Shown here in pieces: positions 40,300 to 57,861 of a stretch of 64,000 nucleotides of DNA (the stretch's first letter is position 1; every line of letters starts with the position of its first letter). The notes under the pieces are model-generated. The model was not told the origin of the DNA. It saw nothing but the letters and a program-made list of their open reading frames with translations, and did not search any database. The DNA comes from Alcaligenaceae bacterium (GTDB lineage: Bacteria; Pseudomonadota; Gammaproteobacteria; Burkholderiales; Burkholderiaceae_B): assembly GCA_013416395.1 (NCBI GenBank), contig JACCEP010000001.1, forward strand, positions 744,001 to 808,000. Reading direction: 5' to 3'. The position numbers were made by a program, and so were the translations under genes.

Positions 40300-41059
40300 T
40301 AGCTTGCCCGGTTATATTCGTTGCCGCCGGGGAAGACAGAAACAACGCCATGGCGGCAATGTCTTCCATGGTTACCATCCGGCGCAGCGAGATTTTTTCC
40401 AGGTATTGATTGCGCATGTCGCTTTCGCCAATGCCCAGTACCTTGGCTCTGTCCTGTATGACACGGCTCATTCGGTCGCCGTCCACCACACCGGGCAGCA
40501 CGGCGTTGATGCGCACGTTGTCCGGGCCCAGCTCATTGGCAAGTGACTTCATCAAGCCGACGATGGCCCATTTGGTGGCCGCATAGGGCGTGCGAAAGGG
40601 GTACCCTAACCTGCCGGCGACTGACGACATGAGCACGATGTTGGCGTTGTGGGATGATGCTTTCAGATAGGGCACCGCCTTCCTCAGAAAATAGAATTGG
40701 CTGTTGAGGTTGGTGCTGATGGTGTGTTCCCATGCAGCAGGGTCGAGGTCTTCGATGTTGCCGGTAGGGCCTGCGATGCCGGCGTTGTTGATCAGGACGT
40801 CAAGGCCGCCCAGTGCAGTGGCTGCGTCGTCCATAATTCGGTCGACGTCGTTTCGCACGCCAACATCTGCCACTGCGCCATGCATGCCTGCATGCTTAGC
40901 CAGCATCAGATCAACCGCGCGGGCATCGATATCGCAAATGTAAACCCTGGCACTGGCTTCATGAAAGCCTTGTGCAATCATGGCACCTATTCCTGCTGCA
41001 CCACCGGTAATCAAAACCTTAAGGCCGGAAGGCGGAATCAGTCTGTCGACTATGCTCAT
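40268..41059 (-). CDS. SDR family oxidoreductase
   Basis: The 263-aa short-chain dehydrogenase has TGGAAGIG at the dinucleotide site, Asp after the second strand (YICDID, favouring NAD), NNAGIAGP, catalytic Ser in LMSSVAG and Tyr-Lys in YAATK. The C-terminus reads TNITGQAISVDGNVEYL. It would oxidise a hydroxy acid to the keto acid that the neighbouring BKACE could cleave, an inference from position. It is followed 39 bases away (upstream on this strand) by a second SDR. Confidence 0.87.
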   Translation of the reverse strand: MSIVDRLIPPSGLKVLITGGAAGIGAMIAQGFHEASARVYICDIDARAVDLMLAKHAGMHGAVADVGVRNDVDRIMDDAATALGGLDVLINNAGIAGPTGNIEDLDPAAWEHTISTNLNSQFYFLRKAVPYLKASSHNANIVLMSSVAGRLGYPFRTPYAATKWAIVGLMKSLANELGPDNVRINAVLPGVVDGDRMSRVIQDRAKVLGIGESDMRNQYLEKISLRRMVTMEDIAAMALFLSSPAATNITGQAISVDGNVEYL

Positions 41060-41098
41060 CGTGTTCTCTTTCAGGACGGGGCATAAATGGCCCCGAGG

Positions 41099-41839
41099 TT
41101 AAAGGGTCAGGCCACCGCTGGCTTCAATGACGGCGCCGTTGACATAGCTGGCTTCGTCACTGGCAAGAAAGGCGTAGATGTTGGCGATCTCTTCAGGTTT
41201 GCCCAGCCGTCGTAGCGGGACCTGCCCGCACAGATTGGCGAGCACGTCATTAGGCACGCTGGCAAGCATGGCGGTTTCCACAAACCCAGGTGCTACGGCG
41301 TTGACCCGTATGCCCTTAGGCCCGAGCTCGCGTGCCCAGGTTTTGGTAAAACCGATCACGCCAAACTTGGCGGCGGCATAGTTGGTCTGCCCGAAATTGC
41401 CATAAATGCCGACGACCGAGCTGGCGTTCAGAATGGCCCCGCTGCCTTGCGCAATCATGGGCGGCAGAACAGCCTGGGCGGCGTTGAAGACGCCTCTCAG
41501 GTTTACATCGATGACCGAATCGAATTGATCGGCGGTCATTTTTTCAAGGCGTGCATCTCGCGTGATGCCTGCATTGTTTACCAGGATATCAACCCCTCCG
41601 AACTGCTCGACCGTTTGTGCAACCATGGCGTCCAGCGCTTCGCGGTCTGTGACATCAAGCGAAAACCCCATTGCTTTGGCACCCGCTTGTTCACATGCTG
41701 CAACAGTCTTGGTGATTGCCTCCTGGCTGATGTCGCACACCACGATGGTTGCGCCTTCCTTGGCAAACTTGATGGCTGTTGCTTCTCCTATGCCCTGGCC
41801 TGCGCCAGTAATAATGGCGATTTTGTTTTTTAGTCTCAT
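41099..41839 (-). CDS. FabG-like SDR (3-oxoacyl reductase type)
   Basis: The 246-aa SDR starts at the ATG of MRLKNKIAI, with AAAGGGAT upstream. Motifs are [40 protein letters not shown], catalytic Ser in NASSVVG and Tyr-Lys in YAAAK, giving a close match to FabG/PhaB-type reductases. It forms a minus-strand operon with the SDR at 40268. The pair may act on opposite stereoisomers or successive hydroxyl groups of one substrate. Confidence 0.88.
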
Positions 41840-41997
41840 AGATATCCCTTTCAAGAGGGGTGTTGGTTATTGAATGCGCCAGAACGTCTGCCTGCTCTTG
41901 GGGCGCATGATGTAGCGTGAGCTTAACGAAGTTTCAAATGGGTGTTAAGATCATTATCGGACGTAGGGGTATCTCTGGAGGCGCTGGGCGATCTGTC

Positions 41998-43023
41998 ATG
42001 CGAAGCAAAACACCATTGTTCAACCAGCGCATCTATGCACCGTACAAAATCGCGGCGTTAGTAGAGGTATTAAGCGAGCAGGGCATACCGCCGTCTAAAA
42101 GTCTTGAAGGCACAGATGTTCGCGAAGATCAAATTCACGACGCCACCCAACTTACTTCAGTCAGCCAATACGTAGCAGTGTGCAGCAACGCCTTAGCGCT
42201 TAACTGCAGTGCCGCCACGCCGTTTGAAACGGGCTCGCGCCTGCATCTTTCGGCCTATGGCATGTATGGCTATGCCTTGATGTCTTGTCTCACCATGCGC
42301 GATTACTTCAGGCTGGGTGTCAAATACCATTCTCTGGCCACGCCTACGTTATCCATTGAGTGGACCGAATACGACCGGACGGCAGTATGGGCGTTTCCTG
42401 ATGCCTTGCTTTTTAATGAATCCAGGGAGATCAGGCAGTTTTTGATCGAGCAACAGTTTACCCAGCACGCCACGCATTTTCAGGATGTCTTCGGCAGAAC
42501 CTGCCCACCGCTCAAAGCCTATTTTTCATACCCAGCACCCGTGCATTCGCCTTTGTACACCAAGTATCTAGGATGCCCATCGGTCTTCAATTACAAGCAA
42601 TGTGAGTTGCATTACGATTCGGTTGTGCTCGAACAAAAGCCGCTGCTGGCGCACAGACTGACGGCAACGGTCTTGCAACAGACGTGCGAACGTTTGATTG
42701 GCGAAACCAAGACATCTTCGGGGATTGCCGGCGAGGTGTATCAGCGGCTGTTAAAAAGGCCTGGCGAATTTCCAACGATGGCAACGATCGCCGAACAACT
42801 GGAAATGACCTCTCGCAATCTTCGGCGCCGCCTGGAAGCAGAAGATACCTCTTTTGCAGCAATTCTTGATGATGTGCGCAGCTCGCTGGCCATTGAGTAT
42901 CTTAAAACAACCAAAATGAGCACCGACGACATCGCGCTGCTTTTGGGGTTCTCGGAGCCGACCAATTTTCGGCGTGCTTTCAAGAGATGGACCGGGCGAA
43001 CCACCAGCGAATACCGTAGCTAG
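41998..43023 (+). CDS. AraC family transcriptional regulator
   Basis: The regulator is about 341 aa from the ATG at 41998; in-frame ATG 41938 and GTG 41917 are alternatives giving up to 368 aa. It has an N-terminal arabinose-binding-like domain (KIAALVEVLSEQGIPPSKSLEGT, SAYGMYGYALMSCLTMRD) and a C-terminal AraC HTH (EFPTMATIAEQLEMTSRNLRRRLEAEDTSFAAILDDVR, then FSEPTNFRRAFKRWTGRTTSEYR). It lies between divergent SDR genes and the molybdoenzyme operon and could control either. Confidence 0.87.
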   Translation: MRSKTPLFNQRIYAPYKIAALVEVLSEQGIPPSKSLEGTDVREDQIHDATQLTSVSQYVAVCSNALALNCSAATPFETGSRLHLSAYGMYGYALMSCLTMRDYFRLGVKYHSLATPTLSIEWTEYDRTAVWAFPDALLFNESREIRQFLIEQQFTQHATHFQDVFGRTCPPLKAYFSYPAPVHSPLYTKYLGCPSVFNYKQCELHYDSVVLEQKPLLAHRLTATVLQQTCERLIGETKTSSGIAGEVYQRLLKRPGEFPTMATIAEQLEMTSRNLRRRLEAEDTSFAAILDDVRSSLAIEYLKTTKMSTDDIALLLGFSEPTNFRRAFKRWTGRTTSEYRS

Positions 43024-43201: not shown

Positions 43202-43318
43202 GGGCCAGGCTGAGTTATTTGCTTGCCTAACGTGCCAGTCAGCCTTTGGAAACAGCCATCTACTCGAGCCTGAACGGTTCGCGTTGAACTACAGGTTACC
43301 CAGTAAAGGATGCAAGAC

Positions 43319-46078
43319 ATGGTGCAACTGAATCGTCGCAGTTTTTTAAAGGGTTTGGGCGCAGCCGGGACGGGCGTTATTAGCAGCGGCAACGCGTGGG
43401 CGCTTAACCGTCTCGAGCCTATTGGAGACACCCTGCATCAGGACTACCCCTACCGCAGCTGGGAAGACCTCTATCGCAACGAATGGACATGGGACAAGGT
43501 AGGCCACGCTGCGCACTGTATTAACTGCATGGGTAACTGTGCATTTGATGTGTTCGTCAAAGACGGCATCGTGATACGTGAAGAGCAGATCGCCAAGTAC
43601 CCGGCCGTTAACGCAAAGGTGCCTGATGCCAACCCGCGAGGGTGCCAAAAGGGCGCAATCCACTCTACCTCCATGTACGAAGCAGACCGCATTCGCTATC
43701 CGCTCAAGCGCGCAGGCGAACGTGGTGCAGGAAAGTGGCAGCGCATTTCGTGGGATCAGGCAACGGAAGAGATCGCTGACAAGATCATCGACATCTTCGA
43801 AAAGTACGGCCCCGGCAAGCTCAAGACGCACCAAGGGTCTGGCAACCAGTCTATGGTGCGCCAGTCTGGTCCCAACCGCTTTGCCTCGCTGGTTGGTGGC
43901 ATCCAGCTTGACGGTTTCACCACCGTGGGCGACCTTAATACCGGCGCGCATCTGGCTTACGGTAACCCGCTTGAAAGCTTTACGTCTGATGCCTGGTTCG
44001 ACGCCGATTACATCATGCTGGGCATGATCAACCCCAACGCCACCCGAATTCCGGATGCGCATTACATATGGGAAGCACAGCATAACGGTGCGCGCATTGT
44101 TTCTACTGCACCCGACATGAACCCCAGCTCTATTCATGCCGATCTGTGGATGCCCATTAAGCAGGGCAGTGACCCCTATCTGGCGATGTCATTCGTTAAT
44201 GTCATCATCGATGAAAAGCTGTACAAGCCGGCGTTCATGAAAGAGCAGACCGACTTGCCGATTCTCGTGCGTGTTGATAATCAAAAGCTGTTGCGAGAAT
44301 CTGATCTGGAAGCCACTGGCTCAGATGAGGTTTTCTACCATTGGGACTTGAACACCGGCAAGGTGGTCAAGGTCAACGGCTCTATGGGGTCGGAAACCAA
44401 AACCTTGAAGCTGGGTGACGTTGATCCTGCACTCGAAGGCCAGTTTACGGTGAACGGCATTGCTGTCACCACGGTTTTCGAGCAGGTTAAAAAGGAAGCT
44501 GCCAAGTTCCCACCAGAAAAAACACGCGCCTTCACCGATCTCGACCCAGAGATGGTGCGCCGAGAGGTGCGCCGCATGGCCAATGCCCGCAAGGCCATTG
44601 TGATGCTGGGCTATATCATTTCGCGTTATTCCAACTGTCTGTATACAGGCTGGTCTTATGCGCTTGCCATGGCGTTAACCGGCCACGGTGGCAAGACCGG
44701 CGGCCTGGACACGTCGTGGGTGGTCTGGAACCATCCACGCTGGACTGAGCTGGCCAACTTTGGCGGCAAGAAACTGCCGCGCTACGAAGCCGGTGGTCTG
44801 GGCGAGTTTCTGCGCGGCAATATGATTGACGGCGCACGTCAGCACTTTGACCCCGTCAAGCTCAAGGAGCGCGTGGGCTTTAACATCGATGAAATGGAGG
44901 CCATGATCAAGGAATCCATCGATGAGGGCTGGATGCCTTACTACGGCGAAATCAAGGGCATGATCACGGTGGCGGACAACACGTTCCGGCGCAATAAGAT
45001 GGCCGCTACGTATCGCAAGGCGCATCTTGAACAGGCCAGCGAGCTTTATGTAAACGTTAACGTGCGCATGGATTCAACCGCCGAGTGGGCCGACTATGTA
45101 CTGCCCGCCGCCAGCCATTACGAGGCATGGGATCTTCGCACGCAGGGCTTTCACCGTTTCTGTAATGTGTTCACCCGCCCGGTGGAGCCCGTGGGCGACT
45201 CCAAGCCAGACTGGGACATCATGGCGCTGCTTACCAAAAAGATTCAGGAGCGGGCCATTGCGCGTGGGGTGTCGTCGTACCCGGATGGAGACGTTACCCG
45301 CGATCTGCACACCATTCATGATGACTACACCATGAATGGCAAGCTCATGACGGATTACGACGTTACCAAATGGATGGTGGAAAACTCGCCAGAGTTTGGT
45401 GGCGTTACGCTGGAAGAGGCTGCTGAGCGTGGTTTTATCGTGATGAACGAGCATGCAGGTACCAACCAGCCGCTGGTCAAAGATGAGCCTTATAACCCGT
45501 TTACCAACCAGACTGAAAGCAAAAACCCGTATGACACGCTTACGGGGCGGATCACGTTTTACTGTGATCACCCGCGCTTCATGAAGTTGGGGGCTACCGT
45601 GCCGACGGCGCGTCAGCATGCGGGGCCAGAAGCTTCAAAATACCCGTTGGAGTTTTACTCGCCGCATGCGCGCTGGGGCATACATTCAAACTGGCGCTCC
45701 AATAAATTTATGCTGCGATTGCAGCGTGGCGAGCCCAATATTTATATAAACCCGCAGTTGGCGCAACAACGCAATATCAAAGACGGCGATCACGTGCGCA
45801 TGTTCAACGGCACCGGTGAGTTCTTTGCGCAGGCCAAGTTCTACCCCAGCATTCCCGTCAACTCCATCATGATGGAGCACGGTTGGGAGCCGCATCAGTA
45901 CATTCAGCGCAAGCCTATGAACAATTCAATGGCTACGTTTTTGCAGCCGTTGGAGCTGGTTGGTGGATGGGGTCATCTCTCGTTCAAGTACGCCATGTGG
46001 AATGCCAATCAGGTGGCCCACGAAAGTAGCTATGACATTGAACTGGCCCGACCCGAAGATCTGGGCGATTACAGCTGA
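43319..46078 (+). CDS. Type II DMSO reductase family molybdoenzyme, catalytic alpha subunit
   Basis: The 919-aa subunit starts at the ATG nine bases after AAAGG. It has a Tat signal (NRRSFLKG), so it is exported folded. The FS0 cluster ligands are H66-x3-C70-x3-C74-x34-C109, the His-first pattern of type II enzymes (NarG, ethylbenzene dehydrogenase, DMS dehydrogenase, selenate/chlorate reductase). Asp205 in TTVGDLNTG is the probable Mo ligand. Length matches relatives (about 900-980 aa). Gene order alpha-beta-chaperone-gamma follows ser/clr/ddh operons. The periplasmic cytochrome c encoded in the operon fits electron exchange outside the membrane. The substrate is undetermined. Confidence 0.93.
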   Translation: MVQLNRRSFLKGLGAAGTGVISSGNAWALNRLEPIGDTLHQDYPYRSWEDLYRNEWTWDKVGHAAHCINCMGNCAFDVFVKDGIVIREEQIAKYPAVNAKVPDANPRGCQKGAIHSTSMYEADRIRYPLKRAGERGAGKWQRISWDQATEEIADKIIDIFEKYGPGKLKTHQGSGNQSMVRQSGPNRFASLVGGIQLDGFTTVGDLNTGAHLAYGNPLESFTSDAWFDADYIMLGMINPNATRIPDAHYIWEAQHNGARIVSTAPDMNPSSIHADLWMPIKQGSDPYLAMSFVNVIIDEKLYKPAFMKEQTDLPILVRVDNQKLLRESDLEATGSDEVFYHWDLNTGKVVKVNGSMGSETKTLKLGDVDPALEGQFTVNGIAVTTVFEQVKKEAAKFPPEKTRAFTDLDPEMVRREVRRMANARKAIVMLGYIISRYSNCLYTGWSYALAMALTGHGGKTGGLDTSWVVWNHPRWTELANFGGKKLPRYEAGGLGEFLRGNMIDGARQHFDPVKLKERVGFNIDEMEAMIKESIDEGWMPYYGEIKGMITVADNTFRRNKMAATYRKAHLEQASELYVNVNVRMDSTAEWADYVLPAASHYEAWDLRTQGFHRFCNVFTRPVEPVGDSKPDWDIMALLTKKIQERAIARGVSSYPDGDVTRDLHTIHDDYTMNGKLMTDYDVTKWMVENSPEFGGVTLEEAAERGFIVMNEHAGTNQPLVKDEPYNPFTNQTESKNPYDTLTGRITFYCDHPRFMKLGATVPTARQHAGPEASKYPLEFYSPHARWGIHSNWRSNKFMLRLQRGEPNIYINPQLAQQRNIKDGDHVRMFNGTGEFFAQAKFYPSIPVNSIMMEHGWEPHQYIQRKPMNNSMATFLQPLELVGGWGHLSFKYAMWNANQVAHESSYDIELARPEDLGDYS

Positions 46079-46111
46079 GCAGCCTGAGGGGTGCTTACAA
46101 GGGAGAACACA

Positions 46112-47092
46112 ATGGCAGTCACACGCCAAATCAGCATGGTTCTGGATCTGAACAAGTGTATCGGATGTCAGACCTGTACCTCGGCCTGCAAGTTGATGTG
46201 GACCAACCGCAATGGCCGAGAATACATGTACTGGAACAACGTCGAGACCAAGCCTGGTAAAGGCTATCCGCGCGACTACGAAAAAATGGGCGGCGGTTTC
46301 GACAAAGACGGCGCGCTCAAGCTGAGCAAGCAGCCCAGCATGGACGACTATGGCGTTCCGTGGGAGTACAACTACACCGAAGCCCTGATGACGGGTACCG
46401 ACCCCTGGCTGCGGCCCAATGTCAAACCCACGTGGGGTGCCAACTGGGATGAAGACGAGGGCGAGGGCGATTACCCTAATAGCTACTACTTTTATCTTCC
46501 ACGACTGTGCAATCACTGTGCCAACCCTGCCTGTCTGGCAGCCTGTTCGCGCAACGCCATCTACAAGCGCCAGGAAGATGGCATTGTGCTGGTGGACCAG
46601 GAAAGATGTCGTGGCTACCGGTACTGTGTAAACGCCTGTCCTTACAAGAAGGTGTACTTCAACGAAAAAATATCCAAATCGGAGAAGTGCATATTCTGTT
46701 ATCCGCGTATTGAAAAAGGGCTGGCTACGGCCTGTGCCCGTCAATGTGTGGGTCGTATCCGCTGGATAGGCTATCTCGATGACACCGAAGGGCCTATACA
46801 TACGCTGGTCAACAAATATAAAGTTGCTCTGCCGCTACACCCTGAATGGGGTACCCAGCCCAACGTCTTTTATGTTCCGCCGCTGTCCCCGCCAAAATTC
46901 GGTAAAAACGGTGAAGAACTTGATGAACCCAGGGTGCCGCTGGCCTACCTGGAAAGCCTGTTTGGTGATGGCGTCAAAGATGCGCTGGAAACTGTTAAAA
47001 ACGAACGACGGGCCAAGGCCGAAGGCAAGCAAAGCGAGCTGATGGATACCTTGATCGGCTATGTGCACTCCGAAATGTTCAAGCTCAGTTAA
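46112..47092 (+). CDS. Molybdoenzyme iron-sulfur beta subunit
   Basis: The 326-aa subunit has four cysteine groups: C16-IG-C19-QT-C22-TSA-C26; CNHCANPACLAAC; CRGYRYCVNACPYKKVYFN; and KCIFCYPRIEKGLATACARQC. The third group has Tyr where a fourth Cys would be, which is the NarH-type signature for a [3Fe-4S] cluster beside three [4Fe-4S] clusters. It relays electrons between the alpha and gamma subunits and has no signal of its own, so it is expected to travel with alpha through Tat. GGGAGAA precedes the ATG. Confidence 0.93.
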   Translation: MAVTRQISMVLDLNKCIGCQTCTSACKLMWTNRNGREYMYWNNVETKPGKGYPRDYEKMGGGFDKDGALKLSKQPSMDDYGVPWEYNYTEALMTGTDPWLRPNVKPTWGANWDEDEGEGDYPNSYYFYLPRLCNHCANPACLAACSRNAIYKRQEDGIVLVDQERCRGYRYCVNACPYKKVYFNEKISKSEKCIFCYPRIEKGLATACARQCVGRIRWIGYLDDTEGPIHTLVNKYKVALPLHPEWGTQPNVFYVPPLSPPKFGKNGEELDEPRVPLAYLESLFGDGVKDALETVKNERRAKAEGKQSELMDTLIGYVHSEMFKLS

Positions 47093-47108
47093 CGCGAGGG
47101 TGACGAAC

Positions 47109-47846
47109 ATGGTCTCTGGTATTCCTATGGCTAATACGCCCCAGCGTGCCGACGCTGCAGGCAGCATATACAGGCTGGCGGCAGTGGCCTTTGGCCATCC
47201 GCTGGCAGAACTGCAGCAGGCGCTTGTCGATGGCAGCTTTCATGCGGCTTTTAATCAACCCTGGCACCAGGTTACTGGGCGAGAATGGCCTCGCTGTGAG
47301 CCCAGCGCAGATTTTGCGGCGCTCGAAGCCGGCTATATCGATGCCTTTGTTCATGGTCGCCGTGGCAAGCCGCGTATTTCGTTGCTGGCGGGCGAGTACG
47401 AACACCTGCTTGGCGGGCAAACCCGACCCGTGTTCATGCTTAATATCCAGGCCTTTTATCGGCATTTTGGGCTGCATGCAGCGACCAAAGACGAGGGCCG
47501 GGCAGAAGAGCCTGACCATGTGATCGACATGCTCGAGTTTATGGCGGTGCTGTGCCATCTTGAGGCCCGCGCGCTGGAACGTGACGCAGACCCATCGCCC
47601 TATCGGCGCGCGCAACGTGATTTTTTGCAGCGTTACCTGGTGCCCTTGCTGAACGCCATACACCATGATCTTGCTCGCCAGAAAGCGTTAGCGCTCGATG
47701 CCACACTCATAAGAATGCTTGAAGATCTTCCAGAGTGGACGCGGCAACAGCTCGCTGAGCTCGAGGCACGGGTTGGCCCTTACGCCGACGCGTCAGCCAG
47801 TGTGTCGAATCGGCCGCGCAGCGTGGCACAGAACCTTTGGAATTGA
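47109..47846 (+). CDS. TorD-like molybdoenzyme assembly chaperone (delta)
   Basis: This all-helical protein of 245 aa belongs to the TorD/NarJ family. Family features are AGSIYRLAAVAFGHPLAELQQAL, the EYEHLLGG segment and a C-terminal DHVIDMLEFMAVLCHLEARALE that binds the Tat substrate and holds the apoenzyme until cofactor is inserted. It starts at the ATG with GAGGGTGA upstream, 16 bases after the beta subunit. It remains in the cytoplasm and is not part of the mature enzyme. Confidence 0.88.
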   Translation: MVSGIPMANTPQRADAAGSIYRLAAVAFGHPLAELQQALVDGSFHAAFNQPWHQVTGREWPRCEPSADFAALEAGYIDAFVHGRRGKPRISLLAGEYEHLLGGQTRPVFMLNIQAFYRHFGLHAATKDEGRAEEPDHVIDMLEFMAVLCHLEARALERDADPSPYRRAQRDFLQRYLVPLLNAIHHDLARQKALALDATLIRMLEDLPEWTRQQLAELEARVGPYADASASVSNRPRSVAQNLWN

Positions 47847-47856
47847 GGAGTTCTCC

Positions 47857-48762
47857 ATGATGAGATTTTGCCCGAGCAAAAAGCTGGCTGTGCTCGCCGC
47901 CACGTTGTTGTTGGCGACAAGTTCTGTTGCCTTCGCCCAGAAAATAACGACGGAGCCTGACCCCACCGTGCTGGACGTGCATGCCGGTGATACCGTGCAT
48001 GCTTCCAAATTGCCTGACGGTATTTATCTGAGAGAAGTTAACGATCCAGACGACATCATCTGGGCACGCATTCCCGCCTACCGTACGCTGGTGAGCGCCG
48101 CGCCTCCGGTACACGCATCGACCAAACTTCGCTTTGAGCCCAAAGAGGCTCAGTATCTTTACTTTCAGCTGGCGCGTACATCTGAACGTTTTTATGTACG
48201 CTTGCGCTGGCAAGACCCCACTGAAAACCGAAAGACCGACGTTGATGCATTTCGGGACGGCGCAGCGATACAGCTGGCCCTAAACGGTGTGGATACCTCG
48301 TACATGATGGGCACCGGCCCCAAAAAGCCCGTGAACATTTGGTATTGGCGTGCAGACCAGGAACAGGTCGAAGACCTGGCGGCTGGGGGCTACGGCAGCA
48401 CCACCATGCTTCCTGAGCAGCTTGTAACGGGCAAAGGGGTTTATCACGCCGAACGTAACAGCCGCGACAACGAATGGCATGTGGTCATGTCGCGCAAGCT
48501 CGATAGCGCAGGCGATTATCAGGCCGGTTTGAAGACTGGCGTAATCCCGATTGCATTTGCCGTATGGCAGGGTGCTGAGGGACAGCGTGATGGCAACAAG
48601 CGCGTCAGCCACAGCTGGATTCTGGTTAATGTGCTTCCTGCCCCTCCAGCGCCTCAACCGTCGCCTTCCACGTCACAGACGCCCTCCAACCCAGAGCAAG
48701 CAAAACCTGCGAGCCCGGGTGTTCAGTCTAAAGATGTGCCACAGGCCGGCCAGTTTTATTGA
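47857..48762 (+). CDS. Molybdoenzyme gamma subunit, periplasmic b-heme protein
   Basis: The 301-aa protein has a Sec signal (residues 1-27, AFA/Q) and the ethylbenzene dehydrogenase-like heme-b domain of type II enzymes. In relatives the heme is held by Met and Lys; here Met150 or Met151 in DTSYMMGTGPKKPVNIWYWRADQ and a Lys in the MSRKLDS segment are the candidates. It ends in a Pro/Ser-rich tail of about 45 residues that is not part of the domain. It would pass electrons between the beta subunit and a cytochrome c, probably the one encoded at the end of this operon. Confidence 0.9.
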   Translation: MMRFCPSKKLAVLAATLLLATSSVAFAQKITTEPDPTVLDVHAGDTVHASKLPDGIYLREVNDPDDIIWARIPAYRTLVSAAPPVHASTKLRFEPKEAQYLYFQLARTSERFYVRLRWQDPTENRKTDVDAFRDGAAIQLALNGVDTSYMMGTGPKKPVNIWYWRADQEQVEDLAAGGYGSTTMLPEQLVTGKGVYHAERNSRDNEWHVVMSRKLDSAGDYQAGLKTGVIPIAFAVWQGAEGQRDGNKRVSHSWILVNVLPAPPAPQPSPSTSQTPSNPEQAKPASPGVQSKDVPQAGQFY

Positions 48763-48783
48763 GCTGGTACAACGGAGCCAACA

Positions 48784-49902
48784 TTGCAAATTTCAACGAT
48801 TAAACTTAACGACATCAAGCCTCGAGCAGATCAGCCAGATTGCGGGCTGGGTCATGCCTGTCAATTCTGTCCTCGAGAGCCTGACTGTCGCCTGGACAAA
48901 CCACGTCACGAAAAACTGTTGATAGAAAGCCGTCTGGCACACATCGATCAGATTGTGCTGGTGATGGCGAACAAGGGGGGTGTGGGCAAAAGCACGGTGT
49001 CAGCCAACCTTGCCGCCGGCCTGGCTGCGCGAGGCTATCGGGTGGGCGTAGCCGATGCCGATATCCATGGCCCCAATCAGAGTCGATTTTTTGGCTTTGC
49101 GGGGGCGCATGTGCGTGTGACCGACCAAGGCTTGGGCACCTGCGACTTTACCGAAGAAACGCTGGCTCACCCGATCAAGGTCGGGTCGTTGGCGTTTCTG
49201 ATGGAGCGCGATGACATACCTATTGTCTGGCGCGACGCCTACAAGCACGACTTTGTGCATCACTTAATCGGCTCATTCGATTGGGGTGAGCTCGATTTCA
49301 TGATTGTCGATATGCCTCCGGGTACCGGCAATGAGCTGATCACCCTTGCCGACATGCTTGAAGGCGCGAACGTATCGGCGGCGCTGGTTACGACACCCCA
49401 GGAAGTCGCGTTAATGGACAGCCTAAAGGCCGTGCGCTTCTGTCAGGAACGCGGGCTTCCGGTGCTGGGCGTTATTGAAAACATGTCAGGCATTACCTGT
49501 CCGCACTGCAGTGAGGAATTTCATCTGTTCCCCAGAGAAGGGCTGGCGCGGCGGCTGCAAGAAACCGGCGTCGAGTCGCTGGCACAGATTCCACTTGACC
49601 CCGAGTTGGCACGTGGCTCGGATGAGGGCATGCCGGACGTTCTGGCGCGACCCGACGGCCCCGTCGCCCGCGCGTTCATGCCTGTTGTTGATGCCTGTCT
49701 GGAACATGCCAAACAACAGTTCGCAGAGGCCGCCGTCCATTCTTTGAACGACGCCTTTGATCAGAACCTGGACTCGTCCATGCTTGAAGAATCATTGCAG
49801 CACGTGCCTGCTGAGCAGCGCGATGCGATTCGACGGGCGCTTGAAGAGGCGCTCGCCGTTGAGCAGCAACGCCTGTCTGGCAACGAATTGGATAAAGCAT
49901 GA
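48784..49902 (+). CDS. Mrp/NBP35-like P-loop ATPase with N-terminal four-cysteine motif
   Basis: The 372-aa ATPase uses a TTG start; the next in-frame start lies inside Walker A. Walker A is NKGGVGKST (63-71), the deviant Lys P-loop of Mrp/ApbC proteins, followed by DADIHGPNQSRFFG and VDMPPGTGN. C239-PH-C242 is the bridging-cluster pair. Unlike most bacterial Mrp proteins it adds C20-x5-C26-x2-C29-x5-C35 before the ATPase, resembling the N-terminal ferredoxin-like motif of eukaryotic NBP35. It probably builds or transfers Fe-S clusters for this enzyme. It overlaps the next gene by four bases. Confidence 0.88.
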   Translation: MQISTIKLNDIKPRADQPDCGLGHACQFCPREPDCRLDKPRHEKLLIESRLAHIDQIVLVMANKGGVGKSTVSANLAAGLAARGYRVGVADADIHGPNQSRFFGFAGAHVRVTDQGLGTCDFTEETLAHPIKVGSLAFLMERDDIPIVWRDAYKHDFVHHLIGSFDWGELDFMIVDMPPGTGNELITLADMLEGANVSAALVTTPQEVALMDSLKAVRFCQERGLPVLGVIENMSGITCPHCSEEFHLFPREGLARRLQETGVESLAQIPLDPELARGSDEGMPDVLARPDGPVARAFMPVVDACLEHAKQQFAEAAVHSLNDAFDQNLDSSMLEESLQHVPAEQRDAIRRALEEALAVEQQRLSGNELDKA

Positions 49903-51821
49903 AGCCTCCTGCCTACGCGGAACCTCTCGATACGGTGAGCCCTCCCGTCAACCAAGGCCGCAGAAGCCTGTTCCGCAGGCTTGCTCAAGGTACAGACCCG
50001 AGCGCGCCGCACAAGGCACCCTGGCACAGGGTGCTCGAGGTGGCAGCGGGAGAGGGTGACGTACTCTGGTCAGGGTGGGCGACAGCGCATGAGGCGTTCG
50101 TCGTTGGCGATGAAGGCAGAGTGCTGCATTTTGACGGCTCTGCCGATGCCCAAGACAGCCTCTGGCAAACCATGCCTTCATCGACACGCCTGCCCCTGCA
50201 TGCCATCTGGGGCCGAAGCCGCAACGAACTGCATGCGGTGGGCTGGATGGGTACTGTGGTGAGCTTTGACGGCGAGCAATGGCACCATCGACGGGGCGGC
50301 ATAATTGATGAGGTATCGCAACACTATGCGTCTTGTGTTGAGAACTCACCGCTGTTTGATATTACTGGCGATGAAACCGGCCGTGCCTGGGCGGTTGGTG
50401 ACGACGGCGCGATTGTTTATTTTGATGGGCATACCTGGCAAAACCAACCCAGCCCTACGCGCATCAACTTGCGTGGTATTGCGCGTGCCCCGGGCGGTCG
50501 CCTGTTTGCAGTGGGCGGCGAAGGTACCGTTATTACCAGTGCCGGTGATGGGCATTGGGAGGCTTTAGACTGCCCCATAGGCGCAGGCTTTCATGCTGTT
50601 GTGGCACTGTCGGATGATGAGCTGCTTATGGCCGGCGGGCGATACTTCATCGATGCCAGCGGCTTTCGGGGCGAACTGGTGCGGTGGCGTGACGGCTGCT
50701 TTACAGCGGTTGAGGTAGACAAAGCCATGCCACGGCTTAGGTCACTTCGCGCTTACAAAAACGGTGTGTTGATCGCAGGCGACCACGGGCATTTGTATTA
50801 TCTGGAGGGTAATCGTCTGGATCAGTTGCGTACCGACAGCCGCCACGATTTGATGGATATTGTTCCCTTGCCCACCGGCGAAGCGCTTACCGTGGGAGAC
50901 TTCTCTACCATTCTGACCGCCGCACCCGATTTTGTGAAGGCTTTGGCCCCTGATGAGGCCGATCTCGTCAAGAAGTCTGACTGGGCTATTCTCGATTCAG
51001 GTACCAAACACAATCTTTGGGGCTTGAGGGCTGCCGCTGACGGTTCGGTCTACGCCTGTGGCGATGGCGGCACGGTGCTGCACTACTGCGACCAGCGTTG
51101 GCAGGCATTGCCGGTCATCAATGAGGCGGCGGTGCACTGTTTGTGGGATGCCGGTGACGCCGGCCTGTATGCAGGTGGCCAGATGGGCCAGATATTTTGC
51201 TATGACGGCAACGCCTGGCGGGTGGCCTTTGATCTTCATCTGGACATTACCATTCTCGATATGTGGGGTAGTGGTCCAGACTCTATTTATGCCGTAGGCG
51301 ATGAAGGCCTGGTTTTGCACTGGAACGGCGAGAAATGGAGCCGCATGATCAGTGGCACCAAGTCGGCGTTGTACAGCATCTGGGGTTACGACGACAGGCA
51401 TATTCTTGCCGTTGGCGATTTCGGCCTGGTTCTGCGCTGGAATGGTGAAAACTGGAGTGAGTTCTACGCAGGTACCGAGAACTTTCTGTTCGATGTATGG
51501 GGCGATGCCCTCAACAATATTTTTATCGTAGGGCTTTCTGGCACACTGGTTCACTTTGACGGTGAACGCTGGACGCTAACGCTCACGCGCGCGCGCGACG
51601 ACTTAATGGCGGTCGACGGCATGCCGGGCGGTCATCCTTATGCTGTGGGTACCCAGGGCAATATTTTGCATTTTGATGGTTTGCAGTGGCAGCCTGAAGA
51701 GTCGCCTACATCAATAGGCCTGCGTGCAATCTGTGTATGCCCCGATGGCGCTGTTTATGCTGCGGGCAATCAGGGCATTATCTTGAAAAGACATTCATCT
51801 TCAAACAAGGATCAAAAATGA
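49899..51821 (+). CDS. Beta-propeller protein in a molybdoenzyme operon
   Basis: The 640-aa protein has no signal peptide or membrane segment and is built almost wholly of repeats of about 40-45 residues with the pattern LxxIWGxxxxxIxAVGDxGxVLHWNGExW. Clear examples are [49 protein letters not shown] and [16 protein letters not shown]. About 10-12 repeats are visible, enough for one or two beta-propellers. It overlaps the Mrp gene and the cytochrome gene (both ATGA). A cytoplasmic scaffold for assembly is one idea; no function is established by the sequence. Confidence 0.8.
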
Positions 51822-52156
51822 GAATTTTGCCACTGGCAGTAATCCTTCTGGCGATGTCGACGACTGCGGGTGCGGCCGATATAAAGGCGGATGCAGCGGC
51901 CGGAGCGACCAAAGCGGCCGTATGCCTGGCCTGTCATGGTGGAAACGGCGCCAAACCCCTCGCGCCGATTTACCCCAGCCTGGCCGGGCAATCAAACGAA
52001 TATCTGGTCAGTTCCTTGCATGCCTATCGCGATGGGCTCCGGCAAGGCGGGATGGCCGCCATGATGACACCCCAGGCCGCCTTGCTTTCCGATCAGGATA
52101 TCGCTGACCTTGCGGCGTACTACAGCGAGCAGGATCCGGGTACTACGCCTAAGTAG
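51818..52156 (+). CDS. Periplasmic cytochrome c (class I, c4/c5-like)
   Basis: The 112-aa protein starts at the ATG with AAGGATC upstream. A signal peptide of about 20 residues ends TTAGAA. One heme site is present, C36-LA-C39-H40; the axial Met is likely in [14 protein letters not shown], as in cytochromes c553/c4. The small size and single heme fit a soluble electron carrier between the b-heme gamma subunit and a terminal oxidase or reductase. Its presence favours a dehydrogenase role, although selenate reductase also uses a cytochrome. Confidence 0.9.
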
Positions 52157-52227: not shown

Positions 52228-55200
52228 TTAATCCGCGAAAACGTTACAACGCACATGCTGTACGGGCGGATACATAAACGTACCGTCCAGGTGCGCTTGT
52301 TGAGGCTGGTACAGCCGCAGTGTCAGGTAAAACTCACCATCTGTGGGTGTGGGGAGCCAGTTTTTACCGTCGCCCGGATCATCGGCCTGAATGCTTAGCG
52401 TCAGCCCGCCGTCTGCATCACGCTTCAGGCCTGGGGTCCTGTCTCCAATAGAGTGTCGACCAATTGGGTTTGCGACCAACAGGCAATCACTGCGACGGTA
52501 CAACGTGATCGACCAGAAAGCACCGACTTGAGGCGCATGTTCGGGCGGAAAACGCAGCACGTAAGAACGTGTGCCAATCAATGAGTCGCCTTTTTCGTCC
52601 ACCTCGGCCATGATGTACATGGCCTCATCAATGCCAAGTGTGCCGATCCAGTTTCGGGCGACTCGTGCCCTGGTGAAGATGTCGTTGCCAAATGAAGTAC
52701 GCACGTGCACAGCCTGCGTCCAGCCGCCCCCCAACTCGGAAGGCGCGGCAACTTCCCGAAGATCAGAATAAACCTGATCCAGAGCCAATTGAAGGTTTGC
52801 TGAAGACGTGGGCGTTACTGTCAGGTTAACTGCAGAAGGGTTTCTGACGAGCATGATGTTGAGCACCCGCAAATACTCGTCGACACATGGCACACCTGCG
52901 TCTTGCTTTGAAAATAATGCGTCAATGCGAGAAACTGCAGGAGATCCATCAAGTCGGCTGATTGAAAACTGATTTTGCAGTGCATGGACGCGGGCAAGGT
53001 CTTCTTCGTATGGATCAACCAGAATGCGTCCAATAAGCCATACATCATCTCCAGGTGCCTTGATGGGGTGCATGCCTGCAGGGACATCTCCACGCCAGCC
53101 TGGACCATAAACAAACAACTGCTGCCGGGCACCTCCAGTGGTTCGCCGCCCAGCATAAGCCCATGGGTTGGTCCATGCATCCAGAAAGCCAAGCACCCAG
53201 TAACGCTCTCCCATCTCGGGCACGTCGATCACCAACGGATGCTCAGACAGATCAAGCCAGGCGTTTGTGAACAAGGTGTCATTGTTCGGGGTCACTACTT
53301 CTTTATCATCTGGCCCTCGCAATCTTCGCGTGTGGGTAAACTGATTTACCCAGCGCATGCTTGAGGTTGGGGAGTCACCGGCAAACCCCAGACTTTTGTG
53401 TTTTCGAGCAGTATTTGCAGCGCGCATGCGTGCCATTTCAAAAAGCGGCAGGGTTTGCACGACCCAGTCTGCATATTCTCTGGGCTCATCCTCTTCGGTA
53501 GTCAGCAAAACAGCATCCAAACCCATTGCGCCCTGACCTTCGGGCATTACCAGAAAGGGGTTTATTTCCGCAGACGAAAGCGCCTTGCCCGAGCTCATGG
53601 CAAATTCAGACAGTGCGACGATTGACCTCGCCAATTCGGCCGTGTCGGCCTTTGGGGCTCCGCGAAATCCGTTAAGCAAAGGTGCAGTCTTGAGTTCTGT
53701 AATCATCTCGCGAGCCTGATCGAGGCTAACAGGAGCAAGACGAAGGGCAATGTCACCCATAAGTTCGACGTCTACACCCCCCGATCCCAGCATGATTACA
53801 GCGCCGAAATTGGGGTCTTGCTTGACGCCCAGAATGCACTCTACGCCACCCTGAACCATTGGTGCAATCAAAATGCCCTCTGATAAGTGGGTGAGATTGA
53901 AGCGGCCCAGCGATTCCGTGATGCGGTCAAACGCCGCATCGGCTTGTGTTGCGTCTTGAATGTTTACTACCACTCCTCCAATGTCGCTTTTGTGAGTGAT
54001 ATGGGCAGACAGAACCTTCATTACTACGGGAAAGCCCATTGTCACGGCACAGTCAATGGTTTCTTTTTTGTTCTTTGTTATACGAGCACCAACAAATGGA
54101 AGCCCTGCCGAACGCATCACTTCTATAGCGTCGAATTCGTTATATACCTTGCGACAAAGTTGCGAGCGCAATGGCGCGTTCTGCTCTACGTGTGCAACGA
54201 TCGTGCCGCTCGCCTGGAAGAAACTCATGGCTGCCAAAACCCGAACGGCACGCGCGGGGTCGTCAAAACACAAGCATCCGAGTTCTGCCAAGGCGCGCTG
54301 TTGCTCGCGATCTGCCAATGTGCTGAATATGATTACGCGATGGGGAAACTCTCGACGAAGATCTTGAGCAAGTTGGCGCTGCTTTAGCTGCATATCTTGA
54401 TTAATTCCGAATGCAGATAGAAATATAAGCAGACTTCCGTAACCAGCCTCTTTGAGCATTATGCGCGCGACGAAATCCAGCAGATCGGGCTCTGCTGTGA
54501 CTTTTCCGGTCAGGTCAACCGGATTATGCGTCGCTGCCAGTGGAACACGTGACTTGATCAGTTGCTGTGCCGAGGCAGGCAGTTCGGAAACGTCCAGGCC
54601 CGCATCCGCAGCGTCATCCGCCATCATGACGCCTACGCCACCGGACACGGTCAGTATGCCTACACGGCTATTCTCTGGTACCCCGGAAACGGCCAGGCAG
54701 TGCGCAACATCGAAAAATTCTTCGATGGTCCGGGCACGCCAGGCGCCATGCTGTCGAAAGAGTGTTTCATATACAGCATCATCCCCGGCGAGTGCGGCTG
54801 TGTGAGATGCCGCCGTCAGCGCGCCCAGTTCTGTGCGCCCGACCTTAACCACAATAACTGGCTTCCCCGCCAGGCGTGCCAGTTCCAGCGCGCGCCTCAG
54901 TTGCAGTCCATCACTACAGCCTTCCATATAAGCCATAATAATTTCTGTTTGCGGGTCTGTTGCCATCCAGGTAATGCAGTCTGCTACGCTGATATCCCCC
55001 TCGTTTCCGGTGGTTATCCATACAGAAAGGCCGACACCCCGCTCACGTGCCAATGCGTACGCATAAGCCCCGAATGCGCCGCTTTGGCAAACAACGCCAA
55101 TTTTTCCAGGTTTTACCAGACCAGTTGCCACCACCGGTGAGAACGTTGCGTAAATTGACTGGGAAAAATTCATGAAACCCAGGCAATTTGGGCCAAGTAC

Positions 55201-55584
55201 GCGGATACCGGCAGTTCGTGCCTTTTCCAGAAAAAATAATTGTGCTTGTTCACCTGGTTCGCCAGTCTCTGCAAACCCACCCGAAAACATCACAATATTC
55301 TTTACGCCTGCCGCGATCGCGTCATCAAGCGCAGTCTCTGCATGGTGAGCTGGGATAGCAAAAATAGCGAGGTCTATGGGGCGACCCACTGCGGTGAGTG
55401 TTTTATATGCCGGTAAACCAAGAATCTCGTCGGCATGGTGGTTTATGGGGTATATACGACCCGAATAGCCATTTTCCGTCAGATAACGGACAGGGACTGC
55501 GCCGATTTTTTGTGGTGTGGCTGAAGCGCCCACGACCGCGATGGATCTGGGCGCGAGGAAGGAATTCAGATTCAGCAGAGTCAT
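52228..55584 (-). CDS. Fusion of NDP-forming acyl-CoA ligase and DUF1254/DUF1214 protein
   Basis: The single 1118-aa frame encodes two complete families. Residues 1 to about 695 are an ADP-forming acyl-CoA synthetase: CoA-binding domain (PRSIAVVGASATPQKIG), succinyl-CoA-ligase-like domain with the phospho-His261 in ASHTAALAG, and an ATP-grasp domain (VVMKVLSAHITHKSDIGGV; SAEINPFLVMP). From about 702 to the end, DUF1254 (YADWVVQTLPLFEMARMR, TPNNDTLFTNAWLDLSEHPLVIDVPEMGERYWVLGFLDAWTN) and DUF1214 (WSITLYRRSDCLLVANPIGRHSIGDRTPGL, GEFYLTLRLYQP) follow. DUF1254 proteins normally carry their own signal peptide; here there is none. It converges with the molybdoenzyme operon. Confidence 0.88.
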   Translation of the reverse strand: MTLLNLNSFLAPRSIAVVGASATPQKIGAVPVRYLTENGYSGRIYPINHHADEILGLPAYKTLTAVGRPIDLAIFAIPAHHAETALDDAIAAGVKNIVMFSGGFAETGEPGEQAQLFFLEKARTAGIRVLGPNCLGFMNFSQSIYATFSPVVATGLVKPGKIGVVCQSGAFGAYAYALARERGVGLSVWITTGNEGDISVADCITWMATDPQTEIIMAYMEGCSDGLQLRRALELARLAGKPVIVVKVGRTELGALTAASHTAALAGDDAVYETLFRQHGAWRARTIEEFFDVAHCLAVSGVPENSRVGILTVSGGVGVMMADDAADAGLDVSELPASAQQLIKSRVPLAATHNPVDLTGKVTAEPDLLDFVARIMLKEAGYGSLLIFLSAFGINQDMQLKQRQLAQDLRREFPHRVIIFSTLADREQQRALAELGCLCFDDPARAVRVLAAMSFFQASGTIVAHVEQNAPLRSQLCRKVYNEFDAIEVMRSAGLPFVGARITKNKKETIDCAVTMGFPVVMKVLSAHITHKSDIGGVVVNIQDATQADAAFDRITESLGRFNLTHLSEGILIAPMVQGGVECILGVKQDPNFGAVIMLGSGGVDVELMGDIALRLAPVSLDQAREMITELKTAPLLNGFRGAPKADTAELARSIVALSEFAMSSGKALSSAEINPFLVMPEGQGAMGLDAVLLTTEEDEPREYADWVVQTLPLFEMARMRAANTARKHKSLGFAGDSPTSSMRWVNQFTHTRRLRGPDDKEVVTPNNDTLFTNAWLDLSEHPLVIDVPEMGERYWVLGFLDAWTNPWAYAGRRTTGGARQQLFVYGPGWRGDVPAGMHPIKAPGDDVWLIGRILVDPYEEDLARVHALQNQFSISRLDGSPAVSRIDALFSKQDAGVPCVDEYLRVLNIMLVRNPSAVNLTVTPTSSANLQLALDQVYSDLREVAAPSELGGGWTQAVHVRTSFGNDIFTRARVARNWIGTLGIDEAMYIMAEVDEKGDSLIGTRSYVLRFPPEHAPQVGAFWSITLYRRSDCLLVANPIGRHSIGDRTPGLKRDADGGLTLSIQADDPGDGKNWLPTPTDGEFYLTLRLYQPQQAHLDGTFMYPPVQHVRCNVFAD

Positions 55585-55782: not shown

Positions 55783-56691
55783 TTAAAGACCATCACTCGG
55801 CGATTCTTTCATTGATTGGATAGTGAATTCGAGAAAGCTCTCTACGGCTGGAGATAAAGACTTTCTTGCTCTTGAAAATATGGCTATGCGCCAATTGACG
55901 ACTGGGCGGACGATAGGACGGAAGGCGAGATCAAATCCCTCGACAAGAGGTCGGGTAGTAGATGGACAGAGTGCATAACCGCGTTTTACTTTCAGCATGG
56001 AAAGCGCTGTATTAATTCGGTGCACCGGTATGATTTCTTCTGGGTGGCAGCGAACCGGAACCTGGCTCAAAACACTTGTCCTAAGATTGGGCATGTAATT
56101 AAATAGCGGCCGTGCCCGCAACGCTCTCCAACTAAGCGAGTCGGTTTCAGCGAGCGGATCATCTGATCGAAGTGCGGCCCAAAGTGGATCAAGCCGCAAG
56201 ATCTGCACTTCCAGGCTGTCATCGAGTGGAACCCCTGCCGGGCCAAAGCCGACGTCTGCGCTTTCGTTGGCGAGTGCCTTTAGTACTTCTTCGATGGGCA
56301 CATCATTAAAACGAACATCGACGCCGGGGTAGCGCTCACCGTAGTTCGCCATTAACTCGGGTAACAGCGTACAAGACAGCGGTTCAGGTGCCACGACGCG
56401 AACAAGGCCTTGCCGCAGATCTTTGAGGTTGATAACACTTTCAATGGCGTGATCCAGGCCACCTAATACCTGCCTTACCAAAGGCTCAAACGCAGCGCCG
56501 ACTGCCGATACCTCTACGCTTCGTGTGCTTCTGTCCAGCAAGCGCACACCAAGTCGGCTCTCCAGCTCTTTTATCAAACCGCTGAGCGCAGCTTGAGACA
56601 AACACATAGTATCGGCGGCTTCCGAAAAACTCTTGCGATCAACAACCGTAATAAAGGCGCGCAGCTGTCTCACAGTAACTTCTATAGCCAT
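55783..56691 (-). CDS. LysR family transcriptional regulator
   Basis: The 302-aa regulator of standard length has its helix-turn-helix in residues about 5-65 (RQLRAFITVVDRKSFSEAADTMCLSQAALSGLIKELESRLGVRLLDRSTRSVEV) and the co-inducer domain behind. It is divergent from a Bug receptor gene with 189 bp between starts, containing dyads suited to a LysR tetramer. The Bug gene, and perhaps the ligase fusion 198 bp behind it, are likely targets. Confidence 0.9.
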   Translation of the reverse strand: MAIEVTVRQLRAFITVVDRKSFSEAADTMCLSQAALSGLIKELESRLGVRLLDRSTRSVEVSAVGAAFEPLVRQVLGGLDHAIESVINLKDLRQGLVRVVAPEPLSCTLLPELMANYGERYPGVDVRFNDVPIEEVLKALANESADVGFGPAGVPLDDSLEVQILRLDPLWAALRSDDPLAETDSLSWRALRARPLFNYMPNLRTSVLSQVPVRCHPEEIIPVHRINTALSMLKVKRGYALCPSTTRPLVEGFDLAFRPIVRPVVNWRIAIFSRARKSLSPAVESFLEFTIQSMKESPSDGL

Positions 56692-56790: not shown

Positions 56791-56880
56791 CAAACAGAAT
56801 GAGCCGCAGCGACGGGGTATTAGCGCTTTATGGTCATTCAGGTGGAATCGTTATTCCTCATAAATAAAACTGGAGACACT

Positions 56881-57861
56881 ATGAAAATTGATCGACGAAC
56901 AGTCCTGTTTGCTGCAGCCGCGACCTTATGCGTGAACATTGCGCCTTTCGCCTATGCAGCAGAAGAATGGCCATCGCGTCCGGTAAAGATTATTTCACCG
57001 TACGGTGCCGGTGGCCCGAGCGACTTGTCAGCACGCCTTATTGCCGAGGCTTTAGGTAAAAGGTTGGGTCAAACCTTTATCGTGGAAAATAAAACCGGCG
57101 CGGGTACGCTGGTGGCCAATCAATTTGTCGCGACGTCTCCCGGCGATGGCTACACCATTTTGTACGCTGCAGCGCCATACTCCACGCTTGAGGCGTTGAA
57201 CGGAAAGTTAAGCTACGACCCGCGCAAGGATCTGAAAGCGGTAGCAATGGCCATTACCGTGCCTCTTTTTCTTATTGTTAATGCCGACTCACCTTTTCAT
57301 ACGGTTCAAGACCTTATCAAGTATGGAAAGTCTCATGAAGGAGGTCTAACCTTCGGTTCGCCGGGCAGCGGATCGTTGCCGCATCTGGCCGTAGAGTTGC
57401 TGTTGCGAGATGCTGACGTTAATGGGATTGCCGTTCATTACCGGGGTGATGTGGCTGCATATACCGATCTGCTGGCAGGGCGGCTTGACGCGACACTTAC
57501 CGCTATTACCGCCGCGCGCCCTCACATTGAAGCAGGTAAGCTACGCGTTTTAGGTGTAGCTTCGTCCTCGCGCAGTGAAATCTACCCCCAGGCCCCGACG
57601 CTTAAAGAACAAGGGCTCCCCAATGTTGTCGCGTCAGGCTGGTATGGTTTCATGGTGCCAGCAACGACTCCCGCGAACATCATCGGCCGGCTTTCCACGG
57701 AGATAATTGATGTTTTGAATGACCCCGCCATCAAAAGCAAGCTGTTGTCGCAAGGGATGGAAACAAGGCCTGAAAATTCTGCAGGGTTTTCAACGTTTAT
57801 CGATTCTGAGATGAAAAAATGGGGGTCTGTCATTCAAGAGGCTAAGATTAAGACTGAATAG
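56881..57861 (+). CDS. Bug family substrate-binding protein
   Basis: This 326-aa periplasmic receptor starts at the ATG with GGAGAC upstream. Residues 1 to about 24 form a signal peptide ending AYAAEE. Bug features are WPSRPVKIISPYGAGGPSDLSARLIAEALGKRLGQTFIVENKTGAGTL and GFMVPATTPANIIGRLS. No TctA/TctB membrane genes are adjacent. It is divergent from a LysR gene that probably regulates it. It is the second Bug gene in the window and clearly diverged from the one at 15832. Confidence 0.9.
   Translation: MKIDRRTVLFAAAATLCVNIAPFAYAAEEWPSRPVKIISPYGAGGPSDLSARLIAEALGKRLGQTFIVENKTGAGTLVANQFVATSPGDGYTILYAAAPYSTLEALNGKLSYDPRKDLKAVAMAITVPLFLIVNADSPFHTVQDLIKYGKSHEGGLTFGSPGSGSLPHLAVELLLRDADVNGIAVHYRGDVAAYTDLLAGRLDATLTAITAARPHIEAGKLRVLGVASSSRSEIYPQAPTLKEQGLPNVVASGWYGFMVPATTPANIIGRLSTEIIDVLNDPAIKSKLLSQGMETRPENSAGFSTFIDSEMKKWGSVIQEAKIKTE

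Follow-up and report, generated by a model that had tools for sequence, protein, structure and literature searches.

Ligase-like modules within longer protein chains are already known, as are ligases that carry out a second step. PatZ has an acetyltransferase as a further domain and, to our knowledge, does without the phosphorylated histidine. DddX, an ATP-dependent dimethylsulfoniopropionate lyase (PDB 7cm9), first ligates its substrate to coenzyme A (CoA) and then performs a second step on the acyl-CoA, which the accessible portion of the report proposes to occur inside the ligase fold via Glu432 (PMC8163506). For Nmar_0206, which has no DUF1254/1214 part, the portion of the report available describes the role of a phosphorylated swinging-loop histidine and of a relay histidine in the ATP-grasp part (PMC11494057). 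Here, we analyzed a 64,000-nucleotide stretch of an Alcaligenaceae bacterium genome (assembly GCA_013416395.1, contig JACCEP010000001.1, positions 744,001 to 808,000; "the window"), in which one gene on the minus strand (52228..55584) encodes, in a single open reading frame (ORF) of 1118 amino acids, an ADP-forming acyl-CoA ligase followed by a DUF1254/DUF1214 protein. This fusion is a genuine, conserved, and apparently new domain architecture.

DUF1254/DUF1214 proteins are common, occurring in 60 of 200 genomes of this bacterial family, and most members sampled look exported and have little shared context. We found no demonstrated activity for them in the accessible portions of the literature searched (PMC2744874, PMC10734457, PMC3751524, PMC6710368, PMC6299218, PMC4634964). 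In those portions, a homology model led to the guess that a Malassezia member is a secreted glycosyl hydrolase (PMC4634964), a family member is labelled phosphatidylserine decarboxylase (PMC3751524), and putative nucleases with DUF1254 are mentioned (PMC6299218). The accessible DUF1254/DUF1214 literature, a search that left most subscription papers outside, makes no mention of a fusion to a ligase. Relative to that literature, seen in part, the pairing, its recurrence as operons, and the exchange of ligase for CoA-transferase described below appear to be new.

A sequence-only reading of the window had claimed that one uninterrupted frame joins a full-length ligase to a full-length DUF1254/DUF1214 protein, and both parts of that claim are borne out. 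The frame runs from an ATG at 55584 to a stop at 52228, 1118 codons with no internal stop. The ligase half (residues 1-697; 53494..55584, minus strand) is delimited by Pfam, by the PDB relatives 8wzu, 7cm9, and 4xyl, and by Foldseek, and it contains CoA_binding_2 (residues 13-138), Succ_CoA_lig (159-297), and ATP-grasp_5 (478-692), all above their gathering scores, together with Ligase_CoA_2 (309-380) at 25.0 bits against a cut-off of 23.7. The DUF1254/DUF1214 half (residues 702-1118; 52231..53481, minus strand), delimited by an AlphaFold2 model and fold matching, holds DUF1254 (PF06863; residues 746-875, 52960..53349, minus strand) at 155 bits against a gathering score of 22.2 and DUF1214 (PF06742; residues 987-1096, 52297..52626, minus strand) at 113.6 bits against 25. 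In predicted models, a helix near residue 700-702 forms the start of the module. Because the whole-chain model reaches a predicted local distance difference test score (pLDDT) of 86.5 and a predicted template modeling score (pTM) of only 0.64, the placement of the two halves relative to each other is uncertain.

The fusion is conserved across genomes. Near full-length, single-piece matches were found in 18 of 200 genomes of the same family, the window's own included; in the same set, genomes G030 and G063 carry the fusion as a single open frame (1211 and 1188 amino acids, respectively) with a longer linker. Combining the family set with a scan of GTDB r220, 21 loci besides the window, one per genome, have an uninterrupted ligase-plus-DUF ORF, so the fusion is not the assembly error that the sequence-only reading had allowed for. 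The linker differs in length among fusions without loss of the common frame, DUF1254 beginning at residue 755, 783, or 742 in three others; the copy in Variovorax WDL1 (locus L040) is interrupted by masked bases. Carriers come from the family of the window and also include Noviherbaspirillum and Caenimonas. At the cut-offs used, fusion-length frames in 399 order-wide and 398 phylum-wide genomes were limited to the window's own and that of one congener, and no full-length match turned up among 200 genomes drawn from a different family.

The surroundings of the fusion are also conserved. A LysR-type regulator gene, identified by Pfam, lies upstream on the same strand (55783..56691, minus strand), and divergent from it is the gene of a Bug-type (TctC) solute receptor (56830..57861, plus strand), which matches PF03401 at 227.7 bits (cut-off 27) over 56881-57861. 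Judged from its signal peptide, the receptor probably starts at the inner ATG at 56881. We scored neighbors within the fetched flanks of 24 loci in which ligase and DUF parts are fused or adjacent (L031-L045, L056, and L064-L071). In all 24, a Bug gene diverges from a LysR gene, and the latter precedes the ligase-DUF gene or genes; a short-chain dehydrogenase/reductase (SDR) of about 290 amino acids lies downstream in 13, and a thiolase is present in 3, the single one scanned being BktB-like. No MaoC hydratase gene was found near any of the 24, and a crotonase-type gene was found near 2.

Relatives with unfused genes retain this setting. At L045 (Bordetella ansorpii) and L056, the gene order is the same and the ligase and DUF ORFs lie 13 bp apart. 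In B. ansorpii the order Bug, LysR, ligase, DUF, thiolase, SDR is that of fusion loci, and the two genes are 64% and 72% identical to the window's ligase and DUF halves, but they are two ORFs in different frames, unlike the single ORF of the window. Eight further loci (L059, L060, L072, and L189-L193) have Bug genes and a ligase alongside a tandem pair of DUF1254/1214 genes. At five others (L046-L048, L187, and L188), a family III CoA-transferase (PF02515) stands in the ligase's place, followed by a DUF gene and a Bug gene, and the fetched stretches contain no ADP-forming ligase of this kind. The two enzymes belong to unrelated families and make the same kind of product, a CoA ester. Separate genes in many genomes had been named in advance as a possible sign of a false join; such genes do exist, but as conserved operons they are no sign of one.

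All 10 discovery loci found through the DUF part (L046-L048 and L187-L193) have a ligase or CoA-transferase. For a held-out test, the DUF half alone was searched against two other families (200 genomes of one and 150 of the other); 25 matches were listed, 5 were dropped as loci already in hand, and the remaining 20 were fetched. Loci retrieved through the ligase (L045, L056, L059, and L060) or through both halves (L072) were not counted in the test. A ligase (9 loci) or CoA-transferase (11 loci) was present in 19 of the 20, one locus having both, and a Bug gene was present in all 20. The exception, L222, lies at a contig end, its contig starting about 200 bases before the first gene, and the same genome has a ligase at the end of another contig. 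CoA-transferases immediately adjoining a DUF gene share 69-75% identity with the query; the loci are therefore orthologous, and the counts represent a few ancient events rather than dozens.

As a control, we took 80 other, mostly exported DUF1254 genes of the window's family, best-scoring first among the non-fused matches listed, omitting rows of the clade described below and four that were passed over (one each in G075, G180, G193, and G191). None of these loci has the ligase, one has a CoA-transferase, one an AMP-forming ligase, and six a Bug gene; the idea that DUF1254 at large is tied to CoA-ester-forming genes found no support in these 80 and was rejected. Among 13 weaker matches from the order and phylum sets (L194-L206), none has a ligase; in L195, a CoA-transferase gene lies at a distance of about 7 kb.

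The phylogeny of the DUF modules agrees with the gene arrangements. In a tree of 142 modules (LG+G4, with Shimodaira-Hasegawa-like approximate likelihood ratio test [SH-aLRT] values and no bootstrap), fused, adjacent, CoA-transferase-linked, and tandem-downstream rows form one clade of 37 (SH-aLRT 99), tandem-upstream rows form a separate group of 8 (SH-aLRT 100), and the remaining rows fall elsewhere. The unfused L045 and L056 rows nest among fusions, and it is possible that their separate genes reflect a later split of the fusion. Six DUF positions are identical in all 142 rows (Asp769, Pro789, Trp1024, Gly1059, Arg1090, and Tyr1092) and others nearly so (Tyr1029 in 141; Arg794 and Asn1075 in 139; Gly812 in 138); these near-invariant residues are common to exported-looking and cytoplasmic members. 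Met720, Arg744, and Trp745 mark the CoA-linked group, occurring in at least 97% of its rows and in 0 of 48 outside rows of that alignment, and Glu716 and Arg719 are residues of the group that are also found in tandem-upstream rows.

The proposal that this DUF copy lacks a signal peptide is likewise supported. In the fusion, the DUF half sits inside the chain without a signal peptide of its own. By a crude hydrophobicity threshold applied to N-termini, none of 15 unfused single or tandem-downstream DUF rows is signal-like, versus 70 of 84 control ORFs; 3 of 8 tandem-upstream rows reach the threshold, which we read as the first helix of the domain. The AlphaFold2 model of the half (residues 698-1118; pLDDT 94.8) has the same fold as the solved structures of VPA0106 (3u07; Z 33.4, root mean square deviation [rmsd] 3.6 over 365 residues) and VPA0735 (2p3y and 3vb9; for 3vb9, Z 31.0, rmsd 4.0 over 377 residues), a comparison of a predicted model with solved structures. 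Both are stand-alone, ligase-free proteins deposited as uncharacterised. We rejected the fold as a route to function: its matches carry no assigned activity, and a missing match shows nothing.

The ligase half aligns with Nmar_0206 over its whole length (residues 8-691) and shares its subdomain order, 1-2-5-4-3, as given in the accessible part of the report (PMC11494057), and its relay histidines. By alignment, His261 (codon 54802..54804, minus strand) corresponds to His256 of Nmar_0206, the histidine phosphorylated in the swinging loop, and His531 (codon 53992..53994, minus strand) in the ATP-grasp part corresponds to its His535; both positions are histidine in 34 of 34 aligned ligase rows. 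On its domain order and relay histidines, we assign the half to the ADP-forming acyl-CoA synthetase (ACD) superfamily, and with both histidines intact it looks active. The solved ligases nearest by E-value act on hydroxy acids (4-hydroxybutyrate and 3-hydroxypropionate). Scores against the NCBIfam equivalogs for acetate-, 4-hydroxybutyrate-, and 3-hydroxypropionate-CoA ligases are below cut-off (400.8 against 1200, 387.8 against 1300, and 351 against 1300), as is that against TIGR02717 (358.2 against 567.15). The substrate is therefore not transferable (NF045493, 387.8 against 1300), and we rejected substrate assignment from equivalogs scoring so far under their cut-offs. DddX, of the same superfamily, is the top Foldseek match to the full-length model, over the ligase half only. 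Its Glu432 corresponds to Gln399 and its sulfonium-binding Trp391 to Thr359 in the window; with both key residues replaced, DddX-type lyase chemistry inside the ligase half was rejected. In the ligase tree, the placement of two rows from the window's own genome that hold stops (L003 and L005) was disregarded. That genome also has a paralogous ADP-forming ligase match with an internal TAA (L004, G000:C11:276491-278602).

We think it rather probable that the fusion encodes a two-part cytoplasmic enzyme of carboxylate catabolism, in which one half makes the CoA ester and the DUF half acts on the acyl group. The Bug receptor would capture an organic acid; the N-terminal half, judging from its residues and family, would couple the acid to CoA with ATP through a relay from His531 to His261, releasing ADP; and the C-terminal half would perform a neighboring step, before or after, on the same acyl group. 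We favor a neighboring step because the halves are co-inherited, because another enzyme yielding a like product can take the place of the activating partner, and because the held-out data agree. Catalysis by the DUF half, the sequence of the steps, and the identity of the substrate are all inferred. The pairing had been taken as a clue that DUF1254/1214 acts on a carboxylate or a CoA ester: as a clue it stood, with a CoA-ester-forming gene at 19 of the 20 held-out loci, but it does not decide which of the two. We lean, tentatively, to the free acid, since exported-looking members, which would not be expected to encounter CoA, have the near-invariant residues too; action on the CoA ester is more doubtful, and the remainder falls to a noncatalytic or other role. 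In this leaning, a hydratase- or hydrolase-like DUF half would convert the free acid to a hydroxy acid, which would then be activated by the ligase and finished by the SDR and BktB-like thiolase. A hydroxy-acid product would fit because the nearest solved ligases take hydroxy acids and an SDR and thiolase lie downstream, but this detail is a guess and rather unlikely to be right.

Several other explanations were weighed. That the gene arose by chance read-through, a sequencing error, or an assembly join might draw on the separate adjacent genes at L045 and L056, but it is refuted at the family level, where the fusion is uninterrupted in 21 other genomes and the linker varies yet the frame is kept; we give it practically no chance. 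More substantial, though somewhat unlikely, is that the DUF half works on the acyl-CoA once ligation is complete, for instance by hydration, isomerisation, or a lyase reaction, the fusion channelling the CoA ester. Ligase and CoA-transferase are interchangeable partners that both make such an ester, and Met720, Arg744, and Trp745 are conserved in the clade as its own, Glu716 and Arg719 being shared with tandem-upstream rows; furthermore, with SDR and thiolase in some loci, MaoC in none of the 24, and a crotonase-type gene in 2, a hydratase could be the missing step. However, the near-invariant residues also occur in exported-looking members, not expected to meet CoA, a downstream SDR and thiolase are compatible with either order, and hydratases may be encoded elsewhere in the genome.

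Alternatively, the DUF half could be a nonenzymatic jelly-roll binding or assembly module that holds substrate or shapes the ligase oligomer. Beyond the family, the structures most like it are portions of glycosidases, whose scores (Z of at most 5.3) are too low to carry weight, and one ligase in the same setting, L058, has no DUF neighbor. Invariant polar residues across exported and cytoplasmic members exceed what a scaffold would lead one to expect, though, and unfused DUF genes partner a CoA-transferase of another family, making this role unlikely. Very improbable is an arrangement like that of PatZ, with the ligase half a degenerate acyl-CoA sensor controlling a working second half. PatZ acetyltransferases, ligase-like proteins of 877-886 amino acids, are among the sequence and fold matches, and the PatZ/Pka entries (PDB 9isq and 9it0) likewise place a ligase-like module within a longer chain; but there the extra domain is an acetyltransferase, by PDB molecule name, whereas the window's is DUF1254/1214 and its ligase is apparently active. 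The relay histidines are retained in 34 of 34 ligase rows, and CoA-transferases replace the ligase in sister loci, which suits activation, not sensing.

Hydrolase-like genes recur in the neighborhood of the clade. A carboxylesterase-like gene (PF00135) lies near 8 of 15 CoA-transferase loci (L048, L187, L188, L212, L217, L218, L220, and L221), near L040 and L042 among the 24 fused or adjacent loci, and near none of the 80 controls; PF00135 was confirmed in the three such genes scanned, and their start was read as lipoprotein-like. An alkyl-sulfatase-like gene lies near 6 of 18 tandem-DUF loci (L059, L060, L192, L193, L222, and L230), as well as L074, and near none of the controls; in L060 and L192, the two scanned, its product has a metallo-beta-lactamase fold plus an alkyl sulfatase dimerisation domain. 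Because both kinds of gene lie near clade loci and near none of the 80 controls, they hint that the acid is freed, before it is taken up, from an ester or a compound like one. Separately, a Cupriavidus necator plasmid carries two genes named alkyl sulfatase near a ligase.

Several observations weigh against a two-part enzyme with a catalytic DUF half. Because relatives with the same arrangement have a common ancestry, their loci do not count as independent events. Above Z 5.3, structural searches (Foldseek and VIA-align) returned only uncharacterised DUF1254/1214 entries and 6ans, itself uncharacterised (Z 16.9). The L058 ligase is 58% identical to the fusion's half and shares the Bug/LysR setting with no DUF neighbor, and four further ligases without one fall among DUF-linked ligases in the ligase tree. 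Enoyl-CoA hydratase-like genes occur near 39 of the 80 control loci, and AMP-forming ligase-like genes occur near L197, L198, and L202, among the rows nearest the clade in the DUF tree; links to acyl-CoA metabolism thus reach beyond the CoA-linked clade. The separate hydrolases in several loci (8 of 15 CoA-transferase and 6 of 18 tandem loci) mean that a hydrolytic role of the DUF half is not required, and they lowered our estimate of the hydroxy-acid guess from doubtful to its present, less likely standing.

Some details of these loci are recorded here. The L058 contig also carries the tandem-DUF locus L059, about 74 kb off. In 35 of the 80 controls (e.g., L096, L108, and L140), the enoyl-CoA hydratase-like gene lies directly upstream of an exported-looking DUF1254 gene, and in 4 it lies elsewhere; in the three of those 35 layouts viewed, atp operon-like genes come next. 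L197, L198, and L202 are from other orders, L197 also has thiolase- and acyl-CoA dehydrogenase-like genes, and the DUF proteins of two of the three begin with a twin-arginine-like or hydrophobic stretch.

Downstream, the fusion gene is convergent with a cytochrome c gene, 71 bp from its stop at 52156, as the sequence-only reading had noted. That gene belongs to an operon of the type II dimethyl sulfoxide reductase family (43310-52156), whose alpha, beta, chaperone, and heme b subunits exceed NCBIfam subfamily cut-offs and which also holds a NUBPL/Mrp-like ATPase and a repetitive-looking 640-amino-acid protein. The relevance once attached to this facing operon did not hold. Molybdoenzyme subunit genes are absent from the fetched flanks of all 24 fused or adjacent loci, one of which has a cytochrome c match, and a search with the first 400 residues of the catalytic subunit found it in one of five genus genomes, the window's own. 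In L031, a 92%-identical relative, an SDR occupies the site of the operon. Because of the SDR in L031 and the single genus genome with the catalytic subunit, the operon is most likely a recent neighbor outside the ligase-DUF system, and with the 0 of 24 loci as well, a link to the fusion was rejected.

Farther along, 39334-43023 holds two SDRs, an AraC regulator, and what we take to be a BKACE-like protein, next to what we take to be a branched-chain-type ABC transporter; the set recurs near the fusion in L031 and L041. In L076, L078, and L079, relatives of the window's BKACE-like and 263-amino-acid SDR genes are found near an exported, lipoprotein-like DUF1254 gene. In 10 of the 80 controls (L111, L113, L130-L132, L134-L136, L138, and L154), an exported-looking DUF1254 gene lies near a molybdoenzyme-type iron-sulfur subunit gene; loci of the L111 type are perhaps formate dehydrogenase loci.

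The cytoplasmic DUF1254/DUF1214 branch may represent a new class of enzymes whose reaction, coupled to CoA activation, commits an imported carboxylate to catabolism, a proposal we would place slightly short of an even chance. As tentatively, the class would come in three wirings: fused to an ADP-forming ligase, next to such a ligase, frequently in the form of two tandem DUF genes, or next to an unrelated family III CoA-transferase. A branch tied to two unrelated CoA-ester-forming enzymes narrows its function to one acyl group and one pathway, and the adjoining receptor and regulator are routes to the substrate. The pairing thus suggests a testable role for DUF1254/DUF1214 in the breakdown of an imported acid.

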